The translations under genes and the position numbers were made by a program. Below, piece after piece: positions 26,233 through 37,802 of a stretch of 37,973 nucleotides of DNA (positions are counted from its first letter, which is position 1; each line of letters starts with the position of its first letter). Source of the DNA: an uncultured Dehalococcoidia bacterium (GTDB lineage: Bacteria; Chloroflexota; Dehalococcoidia; GIF9; UBA5629); NCBI GenBank assembly GCA_903844685.1, contig CAIMUM010000005.1:1-37973 (forward strand). Reading direction: 5' to 3'. Below the pieces are notes generated by a model, which did no database searches, had not been told where the DNA came from, and saw nothing but the letters and a program-made list of their open reading frames with translations.

Positions 26233-26307
26233 CGGGGTGTAGCGCAGTGGTAGCGCGCATGGTTTGGGACCATGAAGCCGGTGGTTCGAATCCACTCACC
26301 CCGACCA
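26233..26307 (+). tRNA. tRNA-Pro (anticodon TGG)
   Basis: The acceptor arm is CGGGGTG/CACCCCG with discriminator A and an encoded CCA (26305-26307). The anticodon loop TTTGGGA gives TGG and the T-loop is GGTTCGAATCC. An integrase gene begins 76 bases downstream, so the 3' part of this tRNA is the probable attachment site of an inserted element. The tRNA itself is complete. Confidence 0.95.
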
Positions 26308-26382
26308 TAGATATGGATTTCAGCCATTTGACAACATGGTTCGTTAAGAAGCAAAATACTAACTGGATATAACAAAGACGTC

Positions 26383-27408
26383 ATGGTCTTTGAGGCGGGG
26401 CCGCTAAATGAACAAATGGTTATTTCTATTAAAGAGGATGCGGTTTCGGGGACATCATTAAAGTCTTTAGTGCAAGGGTATCTTCTTACCAAGCAGACCG
26501 AGGGGTTAAGTCCCCATCACATCAAGTACTGCCAGGGCATTATGGGTCGGTTTTTGTGGTACTGTGACAAGGCAGAATGGCCCGATGCTGCAGGAATGCT
26601 GACTGAATGGCATATCAGAGAGTTTATCGGTTACGTAAGTTCTGCAGTAGGTAGATGGGATAAAACAGGCAATGGCTCTGCGTCTTCGTCGCACAAAGCT
26701 TCGCCGCGGACAGTGCATCATTACTATAGTGTACTTCGAGCGTTTTTCAATTGGGGGGTGAGTGAGGGTTATCTAAAGTGCAGCCCTGTTGCCAAAGTGA
26801 AAGTAGCCAAGGCGAAACCCAAAGTCATTCAGCCCTACACTACGGAACAGATAAACAAATTGCTGGCCGTGTGTGACCACGATCTGCAGCACAATTGTAA
26901 GTTGCTGGGAGCTAGAAACAGGGCGATTATTCTAACATTCATAGGTGGCGGTGTGCGTCTATCTGAACTTGTGGGAATGAAAATTCAGGACATTGATACG
27001 AAAAATGGCTGGATAAAGATTTTGGGTAAAGGGAATAAAGAGCGCATGGTCAGGATTGGTTCTTTGGCTCAGAAGGCGCTATGGCGATATTTTACGTATC
27101 GAAATTCCGCACGTTCAGAGGTGTGGCTGACGGAAGAAGGCAAACCTATTAATAATCACGGCGTACAGTCCATGATTGTTAGGTTGAAGAAAAGGGCGGG
27201 AATTCAAGATAGTGGAGGTGCACACAGAGGTCGACATACGTATGCCATAAATTTCCTGCGAGTGGATAGAAATCCATTTAATTTGCAGTATCTATTGGGT
27301 CACAATTCCTTGGAAATGGTGCGCAGGTATGTTTCAACCTTGGGTATGGAAGACGCACTCAAAGCGCACGAAAAGGCAAGCCCAGCGGACAGCATGGGCT
27401 TGAAGTGA
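26383..27408 (+). CDS. Tyrosine recombinase/integrase
   Basis: The 341-aa protein has an N-terminal SAM-like DNA-binding domain (residues about 25-130) and a catalytic domain with all six active-site residues: Arg192 (GGGVRLSE), Lys216 (GKGNKE), His281 and Arg284 (HRGRH), His307 (LLGHN) and the nucleophile Tyr316 (RRYVS). It is therefore probably active. It resembles XerC/D-type and element-encoded integrases. The place right after tRNA-Pro suits an element that inserts into the tRNA gene. The start is uncertain: ATG 26383 lacks a ribosome site, and ATG 26416 would shorten the protein by 11 residues. An 8-bp inverted repeat without a T-run (27377-27384/27395-27402) lies at the end of the frame. 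Confidence 0.93.
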   Translation: MVFEAGPLNEQMVISIKEDAVSGTSLKSLVQGYLLTKQTEGLSPHHIKYCQGIMGRFLWYCDKAEWPDAAGMLTEWHIREFIGYVSSAVGRWDKTGNGSASSSHKASPRTVHHYYSVLRAFFNWGVSEGYLKCSPVAKVKVAKAKPKVIQPYTTEQINKLLAVCDHDLQHNCKLLGARNRAIILTFIGGGVRLSELVGMKIQDIDTKNGWIKILGKGNKERMVRIGSLAQKALWRYFTYRNSARSEVWLTEEGKPINNHGVQSMIVRLKKRAGIQDSGGAHRGRHTYAINFLRVDRNPFNLQYLLGHNSLEMVRRYVSTLGMEDALKAHEKASPADSMGLK

Positions 27409-27505
27409 GGTAAATACATATCCCAATATGGGCAAATTCCAACGAAATAATGTTAATCGGGCCCGTTAGCTGGTCCACTCATTGTGATGGTATAAGAGGC
27501 AACCT

Positions 27506-28318
27506 TTGCCGAAGTTAAGCTATCCTCCACTGACCAGATTTGACGCCATAGTAGCTCTGGTCGACCTGTATTTACAGGATACAGCTTTCCGATCCGCTTT
27601 GGAGCAAGTGCGTAGCGAATATAGATCGACGTTACATGGGCTGGCAACCGACATAGCGAAATGGGTGTCCGTGGCTCCGCGTATAAGTCGGCCCAGCACT
27701 CTAGACTGCTATCATTTTGTTTTAGACCGCCAAGTCTTGACTGCGGTATCATATTTGAACGCACTTAAGACCTTGTTTGCCAAATGGAAACTTCCAATTC
27801 CCGAGCCGTCATACTGGGTGCTTTACAAGGAGATCGAGTCTATGCCCTTGACCGGCATACTGCCAGAGTATGATCTGTATCAGTTATTGCCTAAAAAGGG
27901 AGTTATCACCGAAGGCGGCATGCTACCAGACAATGTTTCCGGCGATAAAATCCCACATCCTGTACCGCCTCTCAGGGTAACGGTGACTTTTTGGGCATTG
28001 GTTTTAGCCGGGAGAGAAGAGTCCCTTAAACACATTGGGAGAAGGATGGATGAGTATGAGCAGAGAGTCAAAGAGAAAGGTTACAAAGAATATCCTAGTA
28101 AGCTGAAGAAGCATGCCTGGTGGTGGTTTGAGCATTTTATCCATGGCAGCAAATTTGAAGATATTTCCGGACTTGAAGCCCAAGCTATTGCAAAATTGCC
28201 CTTAAAATCCGGTGGTAAAGGACCTTGCGCTCCCTACGGCAAGAATATCGGGGCTGCAGTCGGCAAATTCTCCAAACTCATAGGCGTTAACCCACCAGAT
28301 ACAGTTCCCCCACGGTAA
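27506..28318 (+). CDS. Hypothetical protein of the tRNA-Pro island
   Basis: I do not recognise this 270-aa protein. It begins with TTG at 27506 behind AGAGG about seven bases away. No early ATG exists. The predicted chain is soluble, with Trp- and Lys-rich middle parts (LKKHAWWWFEHF near residue 205) and a C-terminal segment (residues about 220-265) that looks like a small helical, possibly DNA-binding domain. It has no signal peptide or membrane segment. It lies between the integrase and the KGG-motif gene, all rightward, and is followed by an intrinsic terminator. Function is open; a role in the life cycle of the element is only inferred from its position. Confidence 0.6.
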   Translation: MPKLSYPPLTRFDAIVALVDLYLQDTAFRSALEQVRSEYRSTLHGLATDIAKWVSVAPRISRPSTLDCYHFVLDRQVLTAVSYLNALKTLFAKWKLPIPEPSYWVLYKEIESMPLTGILPEYDLYQLLPKKGVITEGGMLPDNVSGDKIPHPVPPLRVTVTFWALVLAGREESLKHIGRRMDEYEQRVKEKGYKEYPSKLKKHAWWWFEHFIHGSKFEDISGLEAQAIAKLPLKSGGKGPCAPYGKNIGAAVGKFSKLIGVNPPDTVPPR

Positions 28319-28363
28319 TATTTTTGCGGCGGCCGTATAAACGGCAGTTTCACCAATCCCCAC

Positions 28364-28396
28364 AAGTTACACTCTAAATAGAGGGTAACTTTTTTT
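28364..28396 (+). terminator. Intrinsic terminator abutting the KGG-motif ORF
   Basis: The hairpin is AAGTTAC (28364-28370) with GTAACTT (28385-28391), one mismatch, then CTCT (28372-28375) with AGAG (28380-28383), loop AAAT. A run of seven T (28390-28396) follows. The next base begins the ATG of the downstream gene. It ends transcription of the 270-aa gene, or acts as an attenuator, since the only ribosome-site candidate for the next gene (GAGGG, 28381-28385) lies in its 3' arm. Confidence 0.7.
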
Positions 28397-28615
28397 ATGG
28401 CCAAAGAAACAACCACCACTGTCAGCGAAGCAGGCCGCAAAGGCGGCCTGACTGTCCTGCAAAAGCACGGTCGTGCCCATTTTAAAAAGATCGGCGCCAA
28501 CGGACAGGCTGCCATGCGCAAGAAGCACCCCGGGAAGGCTTCGGAGTGGGGCAAACTGGGTGGTAGGCCGAAGAAGCTGCCTCTAAATAAAATCATGGGC
28601 GAGGAAGGCAAATAA
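28397..28615 (+). CDS. Small basic KGG-motif protein
   Basis: The 72-aa lysine- and glycine-rich protein has two repeats related to the KGG motif of YciG/GsiB-type stress proteins: AGRKGGLTVLQKHGRAHF (residues 12-29) and, in weaker form, IGANGQAAM followed by GKLGGRPKK. Such proteins are small, hydrophilic and disordered, sometimes linked to desiccation or stress tolerance. Their molecular role is unsettled, and DNA or RNA binding by the basic tail is only a guess. ATG 28397 follows directly after a terminator T-run, so expression needs read-through or another transcript. Its end overlaps one arm of a 12-bp inverted repeat. Confidence 0.7.
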   Translation: MAKETTTTVSEAGRKGGLTVLQKHGRAHFKKIGANGQAAMRKKHPGKASEWGKLGGRPKKLPLNKIMGEEGK

Positions 28616-28662
28616 AGAAAAAGGAGGATTGCGGCCCTGCCTTATTCGAACCTTCCTCGCCC
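28597..28662. repeat. Perfect 12-bp inverted repeat
   Basis: The arms GGGCGAGGAAGG (28597-28608) and CCTTCCTCGCCC (28651-28662) are perfect complements, with 42 bases between them. The left arm is in the end of the KGG-motif ORF, the right arm ends just ahead of the ribosome site (28668-28673) of the primase-like gene. There is no T-run after it. Confidence 0.75.
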
Positions 28663-28682
28663 GCCATAAGGAGTGAGTTGAT

Positions 28683-29372
28683 ATGCCAAATAATAACACT
28701 TCCAAGGTCCGTATTCCAGAGAAGCTGGCCGATATTTTCTCGAGCCTGTTTGCGGGAAGGAATGACATGCGGGTGGCGGCTTCAGGCAACATGGTTTTAG
28801 GACCGGTAACCGCAGCTAATTACCTGGATCACCTTGAAGGCATGGCCCCGCTGGGTATTATCCCAATAGTCAATAATGGGTGCCGGTTCTGTGCGATCGG
28901 CCTTGATCAGAAGGACAAGCAAGAGTCACTGGCAATATGCCAGGGATTTCAAGATGTCGCCATAAATAGCTACCGGGCAAAGTCAAAGGCTGACGGGCAT
29001 CAAGTATTCGTGTTTTTTAACGAGCTTGTAGATGCTGGCAGCGTATATAAATTGTGTGAACTGATCCTGGAAAAGATGGGAGTGCAAGGCGCTGTGGTAC
29101 GTCCGTTGCGTAGCATCCCCGGCGACATGGGTCACGGTGGTCATGTAGATCTGCCCCTCTTCGGACGTGAGCGGCAGTTCGTCGACCCGGATGAAACACC
29201 CATCCCACCGCTTAAGGCCCTCAAGCTTATCTCTCGATATGACGGCAAGGATATAGACAATGCGCTGGCACAGCTCGAGGAATATCACGATGTACTACCG
29301 GTAGAGGTCAATACAGGGATGCCGGGCGGCATTGCCGCAGCCGTTTCTTCTGCGGATAAAAGAATTATTTAG
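28683..29372 (+). CDS. Divergent archaeo-eukaryotic primase (AEP, TOTE-type) domain protein
   Basis: The 229-aa protein follows the motif order of the primase domain of TOTE conflict systems: FAGRNDM (23-29), HLEG (50-53), AIGLD (71-75) at the place of the A(V/I)DFD metal motif, GHQVFVFF (105-112) at the SRSGxGxHxWxFF motif, GHVDLPLFGR (153-162) at GNLIALPLQ, and FVDPDE (166-171). The catalytic histidine is kept but the first metal aspartate is Gly73, so the polymerase site may be dead or altered. No zinc finger or helicase domain is attached, unlike full TOTE primases. AAGGAG at 28668-28673 supports ATG 28683. It belongs to the rightward island genes. The assignment rests on motif order seen by eye, not on a database search. 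Confidence 0.6.
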   Translation: MPNNNTSKVRIPEKLADIFSSLFAGRNDMRVAASGNMVLGPVTAANYLDHLEGMAPLGIIPIVNNGCRFCAIGLDQKDKQESLAICQGFQDVAINSYRAKSKADGHQVFVFFNELVDAGSVYKLCELILEKMGVQGAVVRPLRSIPGDMGHGGHVDLPLFGRERQFVDPDETPIPPLKALKLISRYDGKDIDNALAQLEEYHDVLPVEVNTGMPGGIAAAVSSADKRII

Positions 29373-29388
29373 CAGGTTGATTTCTATT

Positions 29389-29517
29389 ATGAAATGTATG
29401 AAGTCTATGATGAAAATTATGTGTATGAATCCTAAAAATGAAAATCCTGGGAAATCAGCTACGATGGATAAAGGGAGGAAATCAGTGCGGGGAACTGTGG
29501 CAGGAGGTTTAACATGA
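29389..29517 (+). CDS. Met-rich 42-aa microprotein
   Basis: A 43-codon frame between the primase-like gene and the coiled-coil gene encodes a short protein. It begins MKCMKSMMKIMCMN, with seven methionines and two cysteines in the first 13 residues, followed by a basic, Gly-rich tail. Its stop overlaps the next ATG as ATGA (29514-29517), a typical sign of translational coupling, and this supports the frame being real. The ribosome site is weak (AGCAGG, about 13 bases before the ATG). The Met/Cys head could bind metal such as Cu(I), but that is speculation. No known family is recognised. Confidence 0.45.
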   Translation: MKCMKSMMKIMCMNPKNENPGKSATMDKGRKSVRGTVAGGLT

Positions 29518-30986
29518 CCACTAAAATTTCTCCCCAAAAGCTTAGTCGGTTGCTCAGTCTGTACTTTGCCGGGTACAACCAGGTACAGATCGGGCAGAAG
29601 CTTGGTATCGACCAGTCAACGGTATCGATCTACATATCTAAATTCGGTATGCAGGCACAGGAAAAGGGCCTGCTGGCTGCATCGAAGGAGGTTGGAATCA
29701 TGGACACTATTTCGGCGCTGCACAGCCTGGCCGCCGAACTCCAGTCCGGCAAGCTATCGGTGGAGGAGGCCAAGATTGGCCTTAAGACACGGCTCAAGCT
29801 GGAAACCTGCGGCATAGTCGAAGATCACTACGCGGAGTTAATCGAGGCGGCAGGGCAGATGAAAGAGCAGGGTTTCCTGGATGCTGCCCTTAAGCTGACT
29901 TCCCTGGAAAAGACGACGGGTACGGGCTATGCCGAGATCACGGCCAAATATGAGGCAGTCATCAACGAGATAGAGCAAAAATCCGTGCAGCTCGATGATT
30001 TGAAGGCAGCCATGACGCAGCAGCAGTCGGCGCTTAAAAGTATCGAGAGCAAGAGGGAAACCTGCGAAAAGGAATACAACGGCTACCTGAAAGAGACCGG
30101 CATGACCATGGACAGGCTCAAAGCTGCCGAGCAGATCTCAGCCGTGCTCAAGAAAGCAAAAGTAAAAGATAGCCAACTGGAAACTTACATTCTGAGGCAA
30201 CAAGAACTTGATAGCAGTGGCATAGACATCAAGCTGTTCGGCAAAATTGCCGGTAAAGCGGCGGTGGTGACATCTGCAGATGGCGGCAAGCAGCTGCTGG
30301 ATATGTTGACGGAATATGGCGGCCTGCAGGCTGCTGTTGATGAGCTAAGTGCTAACAAAACTGATTTTGAGAAACAGCTACTGGGATTTTCCAATAAAGT
30401 AAAAGAGAAAAACCAGTTGGTCAAAGAGATAGCGAAACTGTCGGAGCAAAAAAGTACCCTGGTCGCCACAGTAAAAGACCTTGAAGGAAAGGCCAAGGTC
30501 AAGGAGCAGTTGGAGTATAAGATCAAATCGCTGAATGACATCTGGCGGGGCACCAAGGTGGATATCGAGTCCCTAAAGAGCGAGAAGCTGGTGTTGCAGG
30601 AAGAGGTTGCGGCGACCGAATCAAAATTGACAGAGTTACAGTTCCTCAAAACCGAGCTCGAAGAATTAACCACGAAGACCGCCGAGATGGACAAATTATT
30701 CGCCGATAAGAGCCAGGAATATAGGTATTTCCAGGCTTTCCTTGGTTTTCTTGGGAACACCACGGCTGAAGCTTTGGATAGATTCGTTACACTGGGGCCG
30801 GAATTGGTGCAGCGAGCGAAGCAAGGGAATATCCGCCCAATTGAAGCAAAGGTGGCGTTACTGCGCAATCTTCTTAAGGGCCAGATCAAACCCGATATAT
30901 CCGCTATGACTAGTCAAACGGTGGCAATAGCACCTCAGGGAGTGGTGATCTCAACCTCGGCAATGAAACCTATAGTGAAAAAATAA
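29514..30986 (+). CDS. HTH plus long coiled-coil protein
   Basis: The 490-aa protein opens with a helix-turn-helix of sigma-region-4/resolvase type (residues about 8-45, GYNQVQIGQKLGIDQSTVSI). A helical region follows, then a long Glu/Lys/Gln-rich coiled coil (about 150-400) broken near 230-270. The C-terminal 90 residues are again helical (AFLGFLGNTTAEALDRFVTLG). No ATPase or nuclease motif is visible. The ATG at 29514 has AGGAGG (29502-29507) and overlaps the microORF stop. Its build suggests a DNA-binding protein with a structural or partner-binding stalk. It is the last gene of the island on this strand. Confidence 0.7.
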   Translation: MTTKISPQKLSRLLSLYFAGYNQVQIGQKLGIDQSTVSIYISKFGMQAQEKGLLAASKEVGIMDTISALHSLAAELQSGKLSVEEAKIGLKTRLKLETCGIVEDHYAELIEAAGQMKEQGFLDAALKLTSLEKTTGTGYAEITAKYEAVINEIEQKSVQLDDLKAAMTQQQSALKSIESKRETCEKEYNGYLKETGMTMDRLKAAEQISAVLKKAKVKDSQLETYILRQQELDSSGIDIKLFGKIAGKAAVVTSADGGKQLLDMLTEYGGLQAAVDELSANKTDFEKQLLGFSNKVKEKNQLVKEIAKLSEQKSTLVATVKDLEGKAKVKEQLEYKIKSLNDIWRGTKVDIESLKSEKLVLQEEVAATESKLTELQFLKTELEELTTKTAEMDKLFADKSQEYRYFQAFLGFLGNTTAEALDRFVTLGPELVQRAKQGNIRPIEAKVALLRNLLKGQIKPDISAMTSQTVAIAPQGVVISTSAMKPIVKK

Positions 30987-31230
30987 TACTTCATGTCATA
31001 TATTTACCACGCCATTCTTCCGGCTCTCCATATGCAACACAGAGATAAGCCGGCAACATGTTGGATCGATACTTCTGATAAAAGTACCGGTTTGACATAG
31101 CCGAGGTGTTACTTGGTCTATCCAGGAGGTTACGATCTTCAATATTTCGACAGATCACACAATACAGGCTTTTGTTATGCATATGCTAATTCGACGCAAA
31201 CAGTGCCTTCGTACCATTGATAACAAGCAG

Positions 31231-35199: not shown

Positions 35200-37425
35200 T
35201 CAATATCCCGGTTGTCTTCTCCTCAGTATGAGTAAGAGTCCTATTACGAAGGCAATTCCAAGCAGCGCACCGCTTATATAGAGAATTGTGTTAGGGTCTG
35301 CCAACTCATCAACCGTAAAACTGCCGGCGCTGACACTGCCTACGTAAACTGAATATGTGCCGGGCTGGTCCCGGCTAACATTGAAGCTGATGGGCAGGGT
35401 GCTTCCACTGTTAACAGTTACTCCCTGGCTGGCTTCCTCCCGACCATTGACATATAGCTTCACATTCAATGCGCCATTGACTGTACTCTTGTTAACAAGA
35501 GTCACGCCGACAATCACGGGCGTGCCTGGTGTAACCTTTGAAATTGACAACGAGGCACTTTGCACTACCACGTTGGGAAGTGCTACAGCTGCTGCCAGCG
35601 GTGGTGGAATATAAGGCGAGGATGAAGGAGGCCTTGTATGTATGACTTCCGGAGTTGTTGGAGTTGCCGGCGCACCCGGGTCGGTTATTGTGCCATCAGC
35701 GTGGCCATCGGCATCTTCCGGACCACCATCTCTTAAGGTGAGTGTGAGCGTATTATCGCCATCATTATCGCCAAGCATAGATGTGATATCCATCCATTGT
35801 CCGTTGATGCATTTCCAATACTTGGTGTCTGCGGGCATGTTGGAAGGGAGCGTGATGGTCAGGATCACTGTTGAACCTGGAGTAAGATTGGAGATAGTGA
35901 ACGAAAAGAAGCCGTGTGGGAAGCTATAGCCTGCCAGCGTGCCGCATGCCGTTGTGGTCAATGCGCGCAGGTTATTAATGGAGCCGCCGCTGGTGGTAAA
36001 GGTAGCAACGCCGGTGCCCGTGGCAGTATTGACAGTCTGAGTTTGCTGGCCTGCCCTGTTAACGGTAAATCCTCCGTTCAGGGTGTTGGTACCCCAGGGC
36101 GTGGTTACCGTTACATTCCTGGTACCGGGTGAAGCGTAGGATAGGATGGTAATATTTGCAGTTATCTGAGTATCGTTATCCACCAGGAAGCTATTAACTG
36201 AGACATAACTACCCAGGGCGCCAAACCTCACAGAAGTTGTGCCAGTGAAATAGGTGCCCGCGATGATGACATTGCTTATCGTTTGTCCCTGCATGCCTGA
36301 GTTGGGATTTACTCCAGTTACAATTGGAGCTGCCTGATTGACCGTAAATCCGCCATTGAGCGTGCCCGTTCCACCGGCGGTTGTTACAGAAACGTCTCTG
36401 GCTCCCGGTGCGGCATCGGCTGCCGTGGTTATAGTGGCCGTTAGCTGTGTGGCACTAGTCACGTTTACATTGCTGGCAGTGACGCCGCTGCCGCTGAAAT
36501 TAACCGCTGTCTGGCCTGTAATGAAATTGGTGCCGCTGATAATGACATTATTCAAAATCTGCCCCTGAATGCCGGAGCTGGGATTGACCGAGATGCTATC
36601 GGGACGGCAGCCGCTGCCGTAGTGCAGAATTACACCGCCGGCACCCACGACGAAGACGCTGTTGCTGCAGTTGCCCCAGACGCCTTTAAGGGTATTGGTG
36701 GTGCTGCTGGTCATGGCGCTCCAGGAGTTGCCGTAGTGCATGATTGTACCGTTGCCGCCTACAGCGTAGACATTATCACTGCTGATACCATAGATCCCGA
36801 ATAACCCGCCAAAAGTAAATATGCCCATGTCATTCCATAAGTTGCCGTCATAATTTTCGATATAGCCTGCCGGGAACATGCCGCCTTTCCCCACCATAAA
36901 TACCTGGCTGGCCGAAGCTCCCCAGATGCTCTTGTTATTATTCGACATTGCGGACGTTGTTGAGCTCCAAGTGCTGCCGTTGTAATGCATGATGGAGTAG
37001 GCGGTCCCGACGGCCCAAATATCATCGGGCGAACTGCCCCAGATGCCGTAAAGCTCAGCGGTAGTATTACTGGTCATGACGCTCCATGATGTGCCGTTAT
37101 AATGCAGTATGGTGCCCCCGGCCCCTACCGCAAAGATATTCCTGATTGAACTGCCCCAGATATCATTGAGATTGTTGGAAGTGCCGCTGTTCATGGTGCT
37201 CCATGCCCTGCCGTCATAATTCAGTATGGTTCCGCTGGCCCCTACAACAAAGATATTGCCGGCGGAGCTGCCCCAGACTCCATTGAGATCGTTGGAAGTG
37301 CCGCTGGCCATCGCGACCCATGTATCCGCGGCTGCCGCCGGGACGGGCGTTGATATCAGGGGAAAAGCGATCGACAACAGGATTACTATTAAGGTCAACG
37401 TCAGTACATGTTTATATGTGGACAT
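35200..37425 (-). CDS. Exported propeller-repeat protein with IPT/TIG domains and C-terminal anchor
   Basis: From ATG 37425 the protein has 741 aa. A signal peptide (cleavage after about residue 33, near PAAAADTW) is followed by six or so repeats of about 40 residues with the pattern GVWGSS..IFVVG..GTILHY, likely a beta-propeller. Two IPT/TIG immunoglobulin-like domains follow (each starting near V-N-P-N/S-S-G and ending in LNGGFTVN). A domain of choice-of-anchor type comes next (TKYWKCINGQWMDI, then DGGPEDADGHADG), then a Pro-rich linker, a CARDB-like segment (KVTPGTPVIVGVTLVNKS) and a final membrane helix with RRR. It should be a cell-surface protein. The frame extends upstream to 37551, but ATG 37425 with AGAGGAT before it gives a proper signal peptide. 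Confidence 0.8.
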   Translation of the reverse strand: MSTYKHVLTLTLIVILLSIAFPLISTPVPAAAADTWVAMASGTSNDLNGVWGSSAGNIFVVGASGTILNYDGRAWSTMNSGTSNNLNDIWGSSIRNIFAVGAGGTILHYNGTSWSVMTSNTTAELYGIWGSSPDDIWAVGTAYSIMHYNGSTWSSTTSAMSNNNKSIWGASASQVFMVGKGGMFPAGYIENYDGNLWNDMGIFTFGGLFGIYGISSDNVYAVGGNGTIMHYGNSWSAMTSSTTNTLKGVWGNCSNSVFVVGAGGVILHYGSGCRPDSISVNPSSGIQGQILNNVIISGTNFITGQTAVNFSGSGVTASNVNVTSATQLTATITTAADAAPGARDVSVTTAGGTGTLNGGFTVNQAAPIVTGVNPNSGMQGQTISNVIIAGTYFTGTTSVRFGALGSYVSVNSFLVDNDTQITANITILSYASPGTRNVTVTTPWGTNTLNGGFTVNRAGQQTQTVNTATGTGVATFTTSGGSINNLRALTTTACGTLAGYSFPHGFFSFTISNLTPGSTVILTITLPSNMPADTKYWKCINGQWMDITSMLGDNDGDNTLTLTLRDGGPEDADGHADGTITDPGAPATPTTPEVIHTRPPSSSPYIPPPLAAAVALPNVVVQSASLSISKVTPGTPVIVGVTLVNKSTVNGALNVKLYVNGREEASQGVTVNSGSTLPISFNVSRDQPGTYSVYVGSVSAGSFTVDELADPNTILYISGALLGIAFVIGLLLILRRRQPGY

Positions 37426-37802
37426 GGCATCCTCTGACATCGATTTTATATAGCTACGCTGTGATACTAATACCTTCGATATTCGACTAATGTGCCTGCG
37501 TATCCTTGTAATGTATATCACCCCCATAATGTGAATGAAGACGACAGCCAAATGAGAGCCACGAGCGCGATGCAGACCAGTTTACCCATCTTGAAGCCTA
37601 CTACCCTGAACGCAGTATTCGTTTGGAGAAGAATCCGCGTAGTTTAACACTTGAGATGCAGAGGTGTCAATTGCGATACTTAAACAAGATGGCACGATCT
37701 GTCAAAGCGGATAACCGCAGAAGTAGCTTCTTTTACGTTCAGAACGTGCTTCTAAGCCAAAAACAGCTGTTTAGCTTCGTTGCAGATTCACTATTGCACG
37801 AA

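Follow-up and report, generated by a model that had tools for sequence, protein, structure and literature searches.

Members of the archaeo-eukaryotic primase (AEP, or PrimPol) superfamily are defined by three catalytic motifs, which are kept almost invariably: motif I (hhhDhD/E), motif II (sxH), and motif III (hD/E) (PMC10345425). The acidic residues of motifs I and III are nearly universal among AEPs, and the replacement of DID by LIL abolishes the activity of PolpTN2 (PMC5862659). In the CRISPR-associated PrimPol (CAPP), residues D177 and D179 bind metal, and activity is lost in the D177A/D179A double mutant (PMC8211822). Here we describe an AEP-fold protein in which all three motifs are degenerate. 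Its gene lies in a cryptic element integrated at a tRNA-Pro gene on contig CAIMUM010000005.1 (assembly GCA_903844685.1) of an uncultured Dehalococcoidia bacterium, the whole analysed stretch of which, 37,973 nucleotides, is referred to as the window. The gene and its motifs are located as follows.

28683..29372 (+): gene for an AEP-fold protein of 229 amino acids (aa) with degenerate motifs I–III (Pfam, PHROG, alignment, model, tree)
28668..28673 (+): ribosome-binding site AAGGAG of the AEP gene (sequence)
28890..28907 (+): motif I, C-A-I-G-L-D; metal ligand D73 replaced by G (28899-28901), D75 kept (alignments)
28983..29003 (+): motif II, S-K-A-D-G-H-Q; catalytic His column occupied by Q107 (29001-29003) (alignments)
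29094..29111 (+): motif III, V-V-R-P-L-R instead of E-[IV]-F-P-K-Q; E138 replaced by V (29094-29096) (alignments)

The motifs were read in a profile-based alignment of 109 AEPs, comprising the window protein, 10 phage primases, 18 cellular AEPs, and 80 AEPs from IMG/VR, the last of which had been fetched with a pattern that includes the motif II His. Residues 73 and 75 correspond to D177 and D179 of CAPP. The former is D in 108 of the 109 proteins and G in the window protein alone, as had been noticed in an earlier sequence-only reading of this DNA, which described the DxD as reduced to GLD; the latter is D in all 109, the window protein included. The same reading held that the histidine motif remains, which proved mistaken: in the gap-free alignment of SKADGHQVFVF with SKSKGFHIYCF, the visible His is H106, one residue upstream of the His column, and residue 107 is H in 108/109 AEPs and Q only here. 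At residue 138, where the window protein has V, the other aligned AEPs carry E (95), D (3), or R (8), the eight R138 proteins being the TOTE form with a D immediately before. Residues 136–140 of the window protein contain no acid, and K142 and Q143 are altered as well. This change in motif III had been overlooked, and only one of the three lesions had been caught. In a second set of 34 relatives, which a profile search of about 480 genomes had returned with no motif required, D73 and H107 are each present in 34/34, in agreement with the 109-row alignment.

Of the three acidic ligands expected, two (D73 and E138) are thus gone, as is the motif II His, and the protein departs from the catalytic-enzyme definition of an AEP at every one of the three motifs. 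A lone point mutation in motif I was considered and ruled out, because motifs II and III are changed too; the homologues do have an intact DxD, which the sequence-only reading had named as a sign of such a mutation, but the lesion does not stand alone. On the other hand, the conserved S101, G105, and R164 are present, and the LPLFGR strand reported earlier is indeed kept, with P158 and R164 conserved.

With regard to the fold, the 229-aa open reading frame (ORF) is an AEP superfamily member by homology, having both the core fold and a significant profile match. It matches Pfam family PF22548 (AEP-TOTE; E 1.5e-10, 41.5 bits, cut-off 27) and PHROG 21866 (primase; 6.6e-13), and only a trace is seen with the NCBIfam model PrimPol_Msp (CAPP; 13.4 bits against a cut-off of 200). 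The AlphaFold2 model, built with 36 sequences from the window and IMG/VR loci, has a mean predicted local confidence (pLDDT) of 85 and a predicted TM-score (pTM) of 0.80, with very low confidence confined to the last 21 residues. Its best solved match is the CAPP PrimPol (Foldseek 4e-13; VIA-align Z 23.8, 2.3 Å, 191 residues, 21% identity), followed by HP0184, the LigD polymerase domain, and Prim-PolC (Z 10–12); NrS-1 PrimPol reaches only Z 5.5, a value at which kinship is still possible. A PDB sequence search with the single window protein gave no match, and the AEP profile finds CAPP at 6e-24, its YDID, GYH, and VEIFPKQ aligning with motifs I–III. The primase-polymerase fold proposed from the letters alone is thereby confirmed. 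HP0184 itself (PDB 2atz; Z 12.4), a structural-genomics protein of H. pylori, possibly has an AEP-like fold.

The ORF is unbroken, with 229 codons free of stops and frameshifts, and its codon usage is host-like: under a model trained on the window's other genes, the annotated frame has a positive score in each half, and the five alternative frames of the region lie at or below about zero, except for one weakly positive frame on the opposite strand. The stop codon is followed by an AT-rich gap of 141 nt. A remnant of a C-terminal PriCT domain, suggested by eye, was ruled out, as the AEP tail scores no better than shuffles against the PriCT profile (158/500 reach its score).

In a 46-row tree, the window AEP falls within the replication primases of phages and mobile elements, is separated from the helicase-fused TOTE proteins of 800–850 aa (97/84 at the basal split), and pairs with an intact 505-aa AEP of another genome (G319) with support 97/88, the two sharing 30% identity over 197 aa. 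Its exact position is unsure because its branch is long. No close homologue above about 34% identity (N-terminal region) was found in IMG/VR, GTDB contigs, phages, plasmids, and the genomes searched, and a single copy of the degenerate AEP is known in these collections; the pattern-based locus searches may miss diverged copies.

Whether the gene has been retained or is decaying was approached indirectly. A set of 36 non-redundant relatives served to define the columns conserved at 80%; the window AEP deviates at 7 of 10 such motif columns, where the relatives deviate at 0–3, and at 5 of 18 other columns (relatives: mean 1.5, maximum 8); at 90% conservation, 11 of 12 non-catalytic columns are kept, within the relatives' range. 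Neutral drift was also simulated, starting at inactivation and ending once 3 of the 4 catalytic codons, or alternatively 7 of the 10 motif codons, had changed; with indels left uncounted, the 229 codons stay stop-free with P 0.03 and 0.01, respectively. The column test, the drift simulation, and the codon signal jointly favour, but do not prove, retention after the loss of catalysis.

We put at roughly 55% the probability that the protein is a catalytically dead AEP, derived from a mobile-element replication primase and kept by the tRNA-Pro element for nucleic-acid or nucleotide binding. The loss of D73, E138, and the motif II His would preclude two-metal nucleotidyl transfer, and the domain would still fold and have been retained once catalysis was lost. 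It is thought that DNA binding by AEPs is metal-independent (PMC10345425), and the dead AEP may assist the element by binding nucleic acids or nucleotides, the candidate jobs, which are guesses, being origin recognition, maintenance, and interference with other primases. It is doubtful that a stably inherited non-catalytic AEP has here been repurposed as a putative nucleic-acid-binding factor acting in origin recognition or in the inhibition of rival primases; no non-catalytic pseudo-primase of this kind was found described in the literature searched. Several observations weigh against retention of a dead AEP. No homologue with G73 or with shared degenerate motifs was found in the collections named above, and any purifying selection on the dead form would accordingly be putative. 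The Fisher contrast between catalytic and other columns gives a p of only about 0.05–0.08, the terminal branch of 2.67 against a median of 0.66 also fits relaxed constraint, and the absence of the C-terminal PriCT/helicase part fits degradation as much as repurposing. In addition, His-to-Gln replacement in motif II is natural in AEP families such as the PolpTN2-like one (PMC5862659), and some B-family polymerases tolerate the loss of one motif Asp (PMC7544198).

The main rival is decay, in which the element's former primase has been truncated and is drifting, its ORF being open by chance as inactivation was recent. The window protein lacks the PriCT and ATPase domains seen in its relatives, the branch is long, only one copy is known, related elements manage without an AEP, and an AT-rich gap stands behind the stop codon; however, a frame of this length without stop or frameshift has a P of about 0.01–0.03 under neutral drift, codon usage is good across both halves, the structural columns are mostly kept, no PriCT remnant lies behind the AEP domain, and the ribosome-binding site is intact. 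On balance, decay is the less probable explanation. A still-active, non-canonical primase or polymerase using D75 and other acids would have a parallel in the RepE/RepS AEPs, which have Gln in place of the motif III acid (PMC5862659), and in the polymerases cited above that tolerate losing one metal Asp. Such activity is, however, very improbable here, with motifs I, II, and III all altered together, G73 and V138 unable to bind metal, no substitute acid near 138, K142 and Q143 lost, and motif I acids so nearly universal elsewhere.

The sequence-only reading had linked the protein to TOTE-type primases and possibly to a conflict system, with an inactive AEP reused for sensing nucleic acids or nucleotides. 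In such a system, the protein might alternatively act as a decoy that blocks the primases of competing phages or elements. TOTE and CRISPR loci do contain AEP domains, a weak match to a PADLOC PrimPol model was obtained (9e-8), and an inactive homologue of phage primases in an integrated element would be a plausible interference factor. A conflict-system role nevertheless seems improbable, and the proposed link is not supported: the protein groups with replication AEPs rather than with TOTE proteins, and Pfam, PHROG, and NCBIfam scans detected no helicase or nuclease in the element. Scans of the larger ORFs of the window yielded neither enzyme, and searches of the window for cas genes and repeat arrays were negative. 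The other genes of the element encode an integrase, OrfB, a KGG protein, and a helix-turn-helix (HTH) coiled-coil protein, of which the last matches defence models weakly via its coiled coil. The dead AEP, as the earlier reading rightly stated, is free-standing, with neither a fused nor an adjacent helicase or nuclease in its element, the parts of which are given below.

26233..26307 (+): tRNA-Pro (TGG), the integration site; same-genus homology ends at its 3' end (synteny)
26308..31147 (+): cryptic integrated element of ~4.8 kb with an exact left and an approximate right end (synteny)
26383..27408 (+): tyrosine integrase, 341 aa, with apparently intact R, HxxR, and Y motifs (PF00589, 1.6e-28; relatives at tRNA genes)
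27506..28318 (+): OrfB, 270 aa, no family match; adjoins the integrase in two related elements (profile scans, synteny)
28397..28615 (+): KGG small basic protein, 72 aa; kept in related elements (comparison)
29514..30986 (+): HTH and coiled-coil protein, 490 aa; final gene in the element (profiles, comparison)

The gene order is thus integrase, OrfB, KGG protein, AEP, and HTH-coiled-coil protein. DNA homology to three genomes of the same genus (G004, G001, and G006) breaks at 26307/26308, and G004 and G006 have empty sites in which an acyl-CoA carboxylase gene follows tRNA-Pro. A fourth genome (G003; contig C264, locus L140) may carry the same element there, since 34 bases past its tRNA-Pro are 100% identical to the window before the contig ends. 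On the right side, the window matches G004 again from 31147-31158 onwards, at a DUF2284 gene whose G004 counterpart has a different location. No attR copy of the tRNA-Pro end was found, and the carboxylase of the empty sites was not found in the window's genome, the assembly of which is 78% complete. Because the right junction does not pair with the empty site, a rearrangement or an assembly effect is possible. Elsewhere in the window, a 783-aa ORF at 35200-37551 (-) has no Pfam match at 1e-5.

Integrase-OrfB-KGG elements also occur in two other genomes, G039 (L146 7232-12400) and G054 (L147 22-6600), at tRNA-Pro(GGG) and tRNA-Val genes, and in both a second small tyrosine recombinase occupies the position of the AEP. 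This recombinase has a zinc-ribbon insert, and a 168-aa protein is also present. The conserved order integrase-OrfB-KGG characterises a family of small elements found at the 3' ends of tRNA-Pro/Val genes (L146, L147, L154, and L155), although neither OrfB nor the KGG protein matches any known family. The G054 element further contains a beta-clamp-like ORF of 428 aa (L147 5069-6355; DNA_pol3_beta_2, 2.9e-5, just below the cut-off), which is unusual at such an element size. The HTH-coiled-coil protein, which has weak coiled-coil matches to LmuB and JetC, recurs in other elements that lack an AEP; proteins of this type, 490–565 aa long, were seen at L205 5202-6899, L207 7396-9051, and L208 7178-8803 in addition to the window gene, several within integrated elements of this class. 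A hidden degenerate AEP next to such genes was considered, and a profile search of the other elements found none.

If the dead AEP is indeed retained, a folded AEP devoid of all three motifs, within a small element that is otherwise intact, would be a natural case of separation of function, in which the AEP fold has a role apart from catalysis, and mobile elements would be seen to keep pseudo-primases, much like the pseudokinases or inactivated B-family polymerases known elsewhere. If it is decaying instead, it would exemplify how such elements lose replication autonomy. The family of integrase, OrfB, KGG protein, and a variable gene at tRNA 3' ends could also aid mobile-element annotation in this class.

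Among known systems, the sister protein in G319 (contig C24, JAUVYB010000018.1; L022/L047/L196) has its gene next to one for a UvrD-type helicase, in a region with an integrase; it has intact motifs I–III (VDLD, SKGFH, and VEVFPKQ) and a long C-terminal part, neither of which the window AEP has. The AEP-PriCT-AAA primase-helicases, represented by PHROG 21866, Nanhaivirus and other phage primases, and a 634-aa protein of G132 with this same architecture, belong to the same AEP subgroup at 25–30% identity and share the mobile-element context, but they have intact motifs together with a C-terminal PriCT/ATPase part or an adjacent helicase gene, all of which are lacking here. CAPP of Marinitoga (PDB 7nqf/7nqe/7p9j), although the nearest solved structure, is an active enzyme dependent on D177/D179 and lies beside cas genes, whereas no cas gene or array was found near the window AEP. 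The TOTE AEP family (PF22548) is matched above its cut-off, but the canonical high-scoring TOTE AEPs found are mostly ORFs of 800–850 aa whose motifs are intact, and they belong to a different clade. The PrimPol-PV1 AEPs (Kazlauskas 2018, PMC5862659) likewise occur in tRNA-integrated cryptic elements with a tyrosine integrase and, unlike the window AEP, keep the motif I acids; the likeness is one of context and does not imply PV1 membership. Compared with these systems, the window protein is a real, degenerate AEP that belongs to neither a TOTE nor a CRISPR system.
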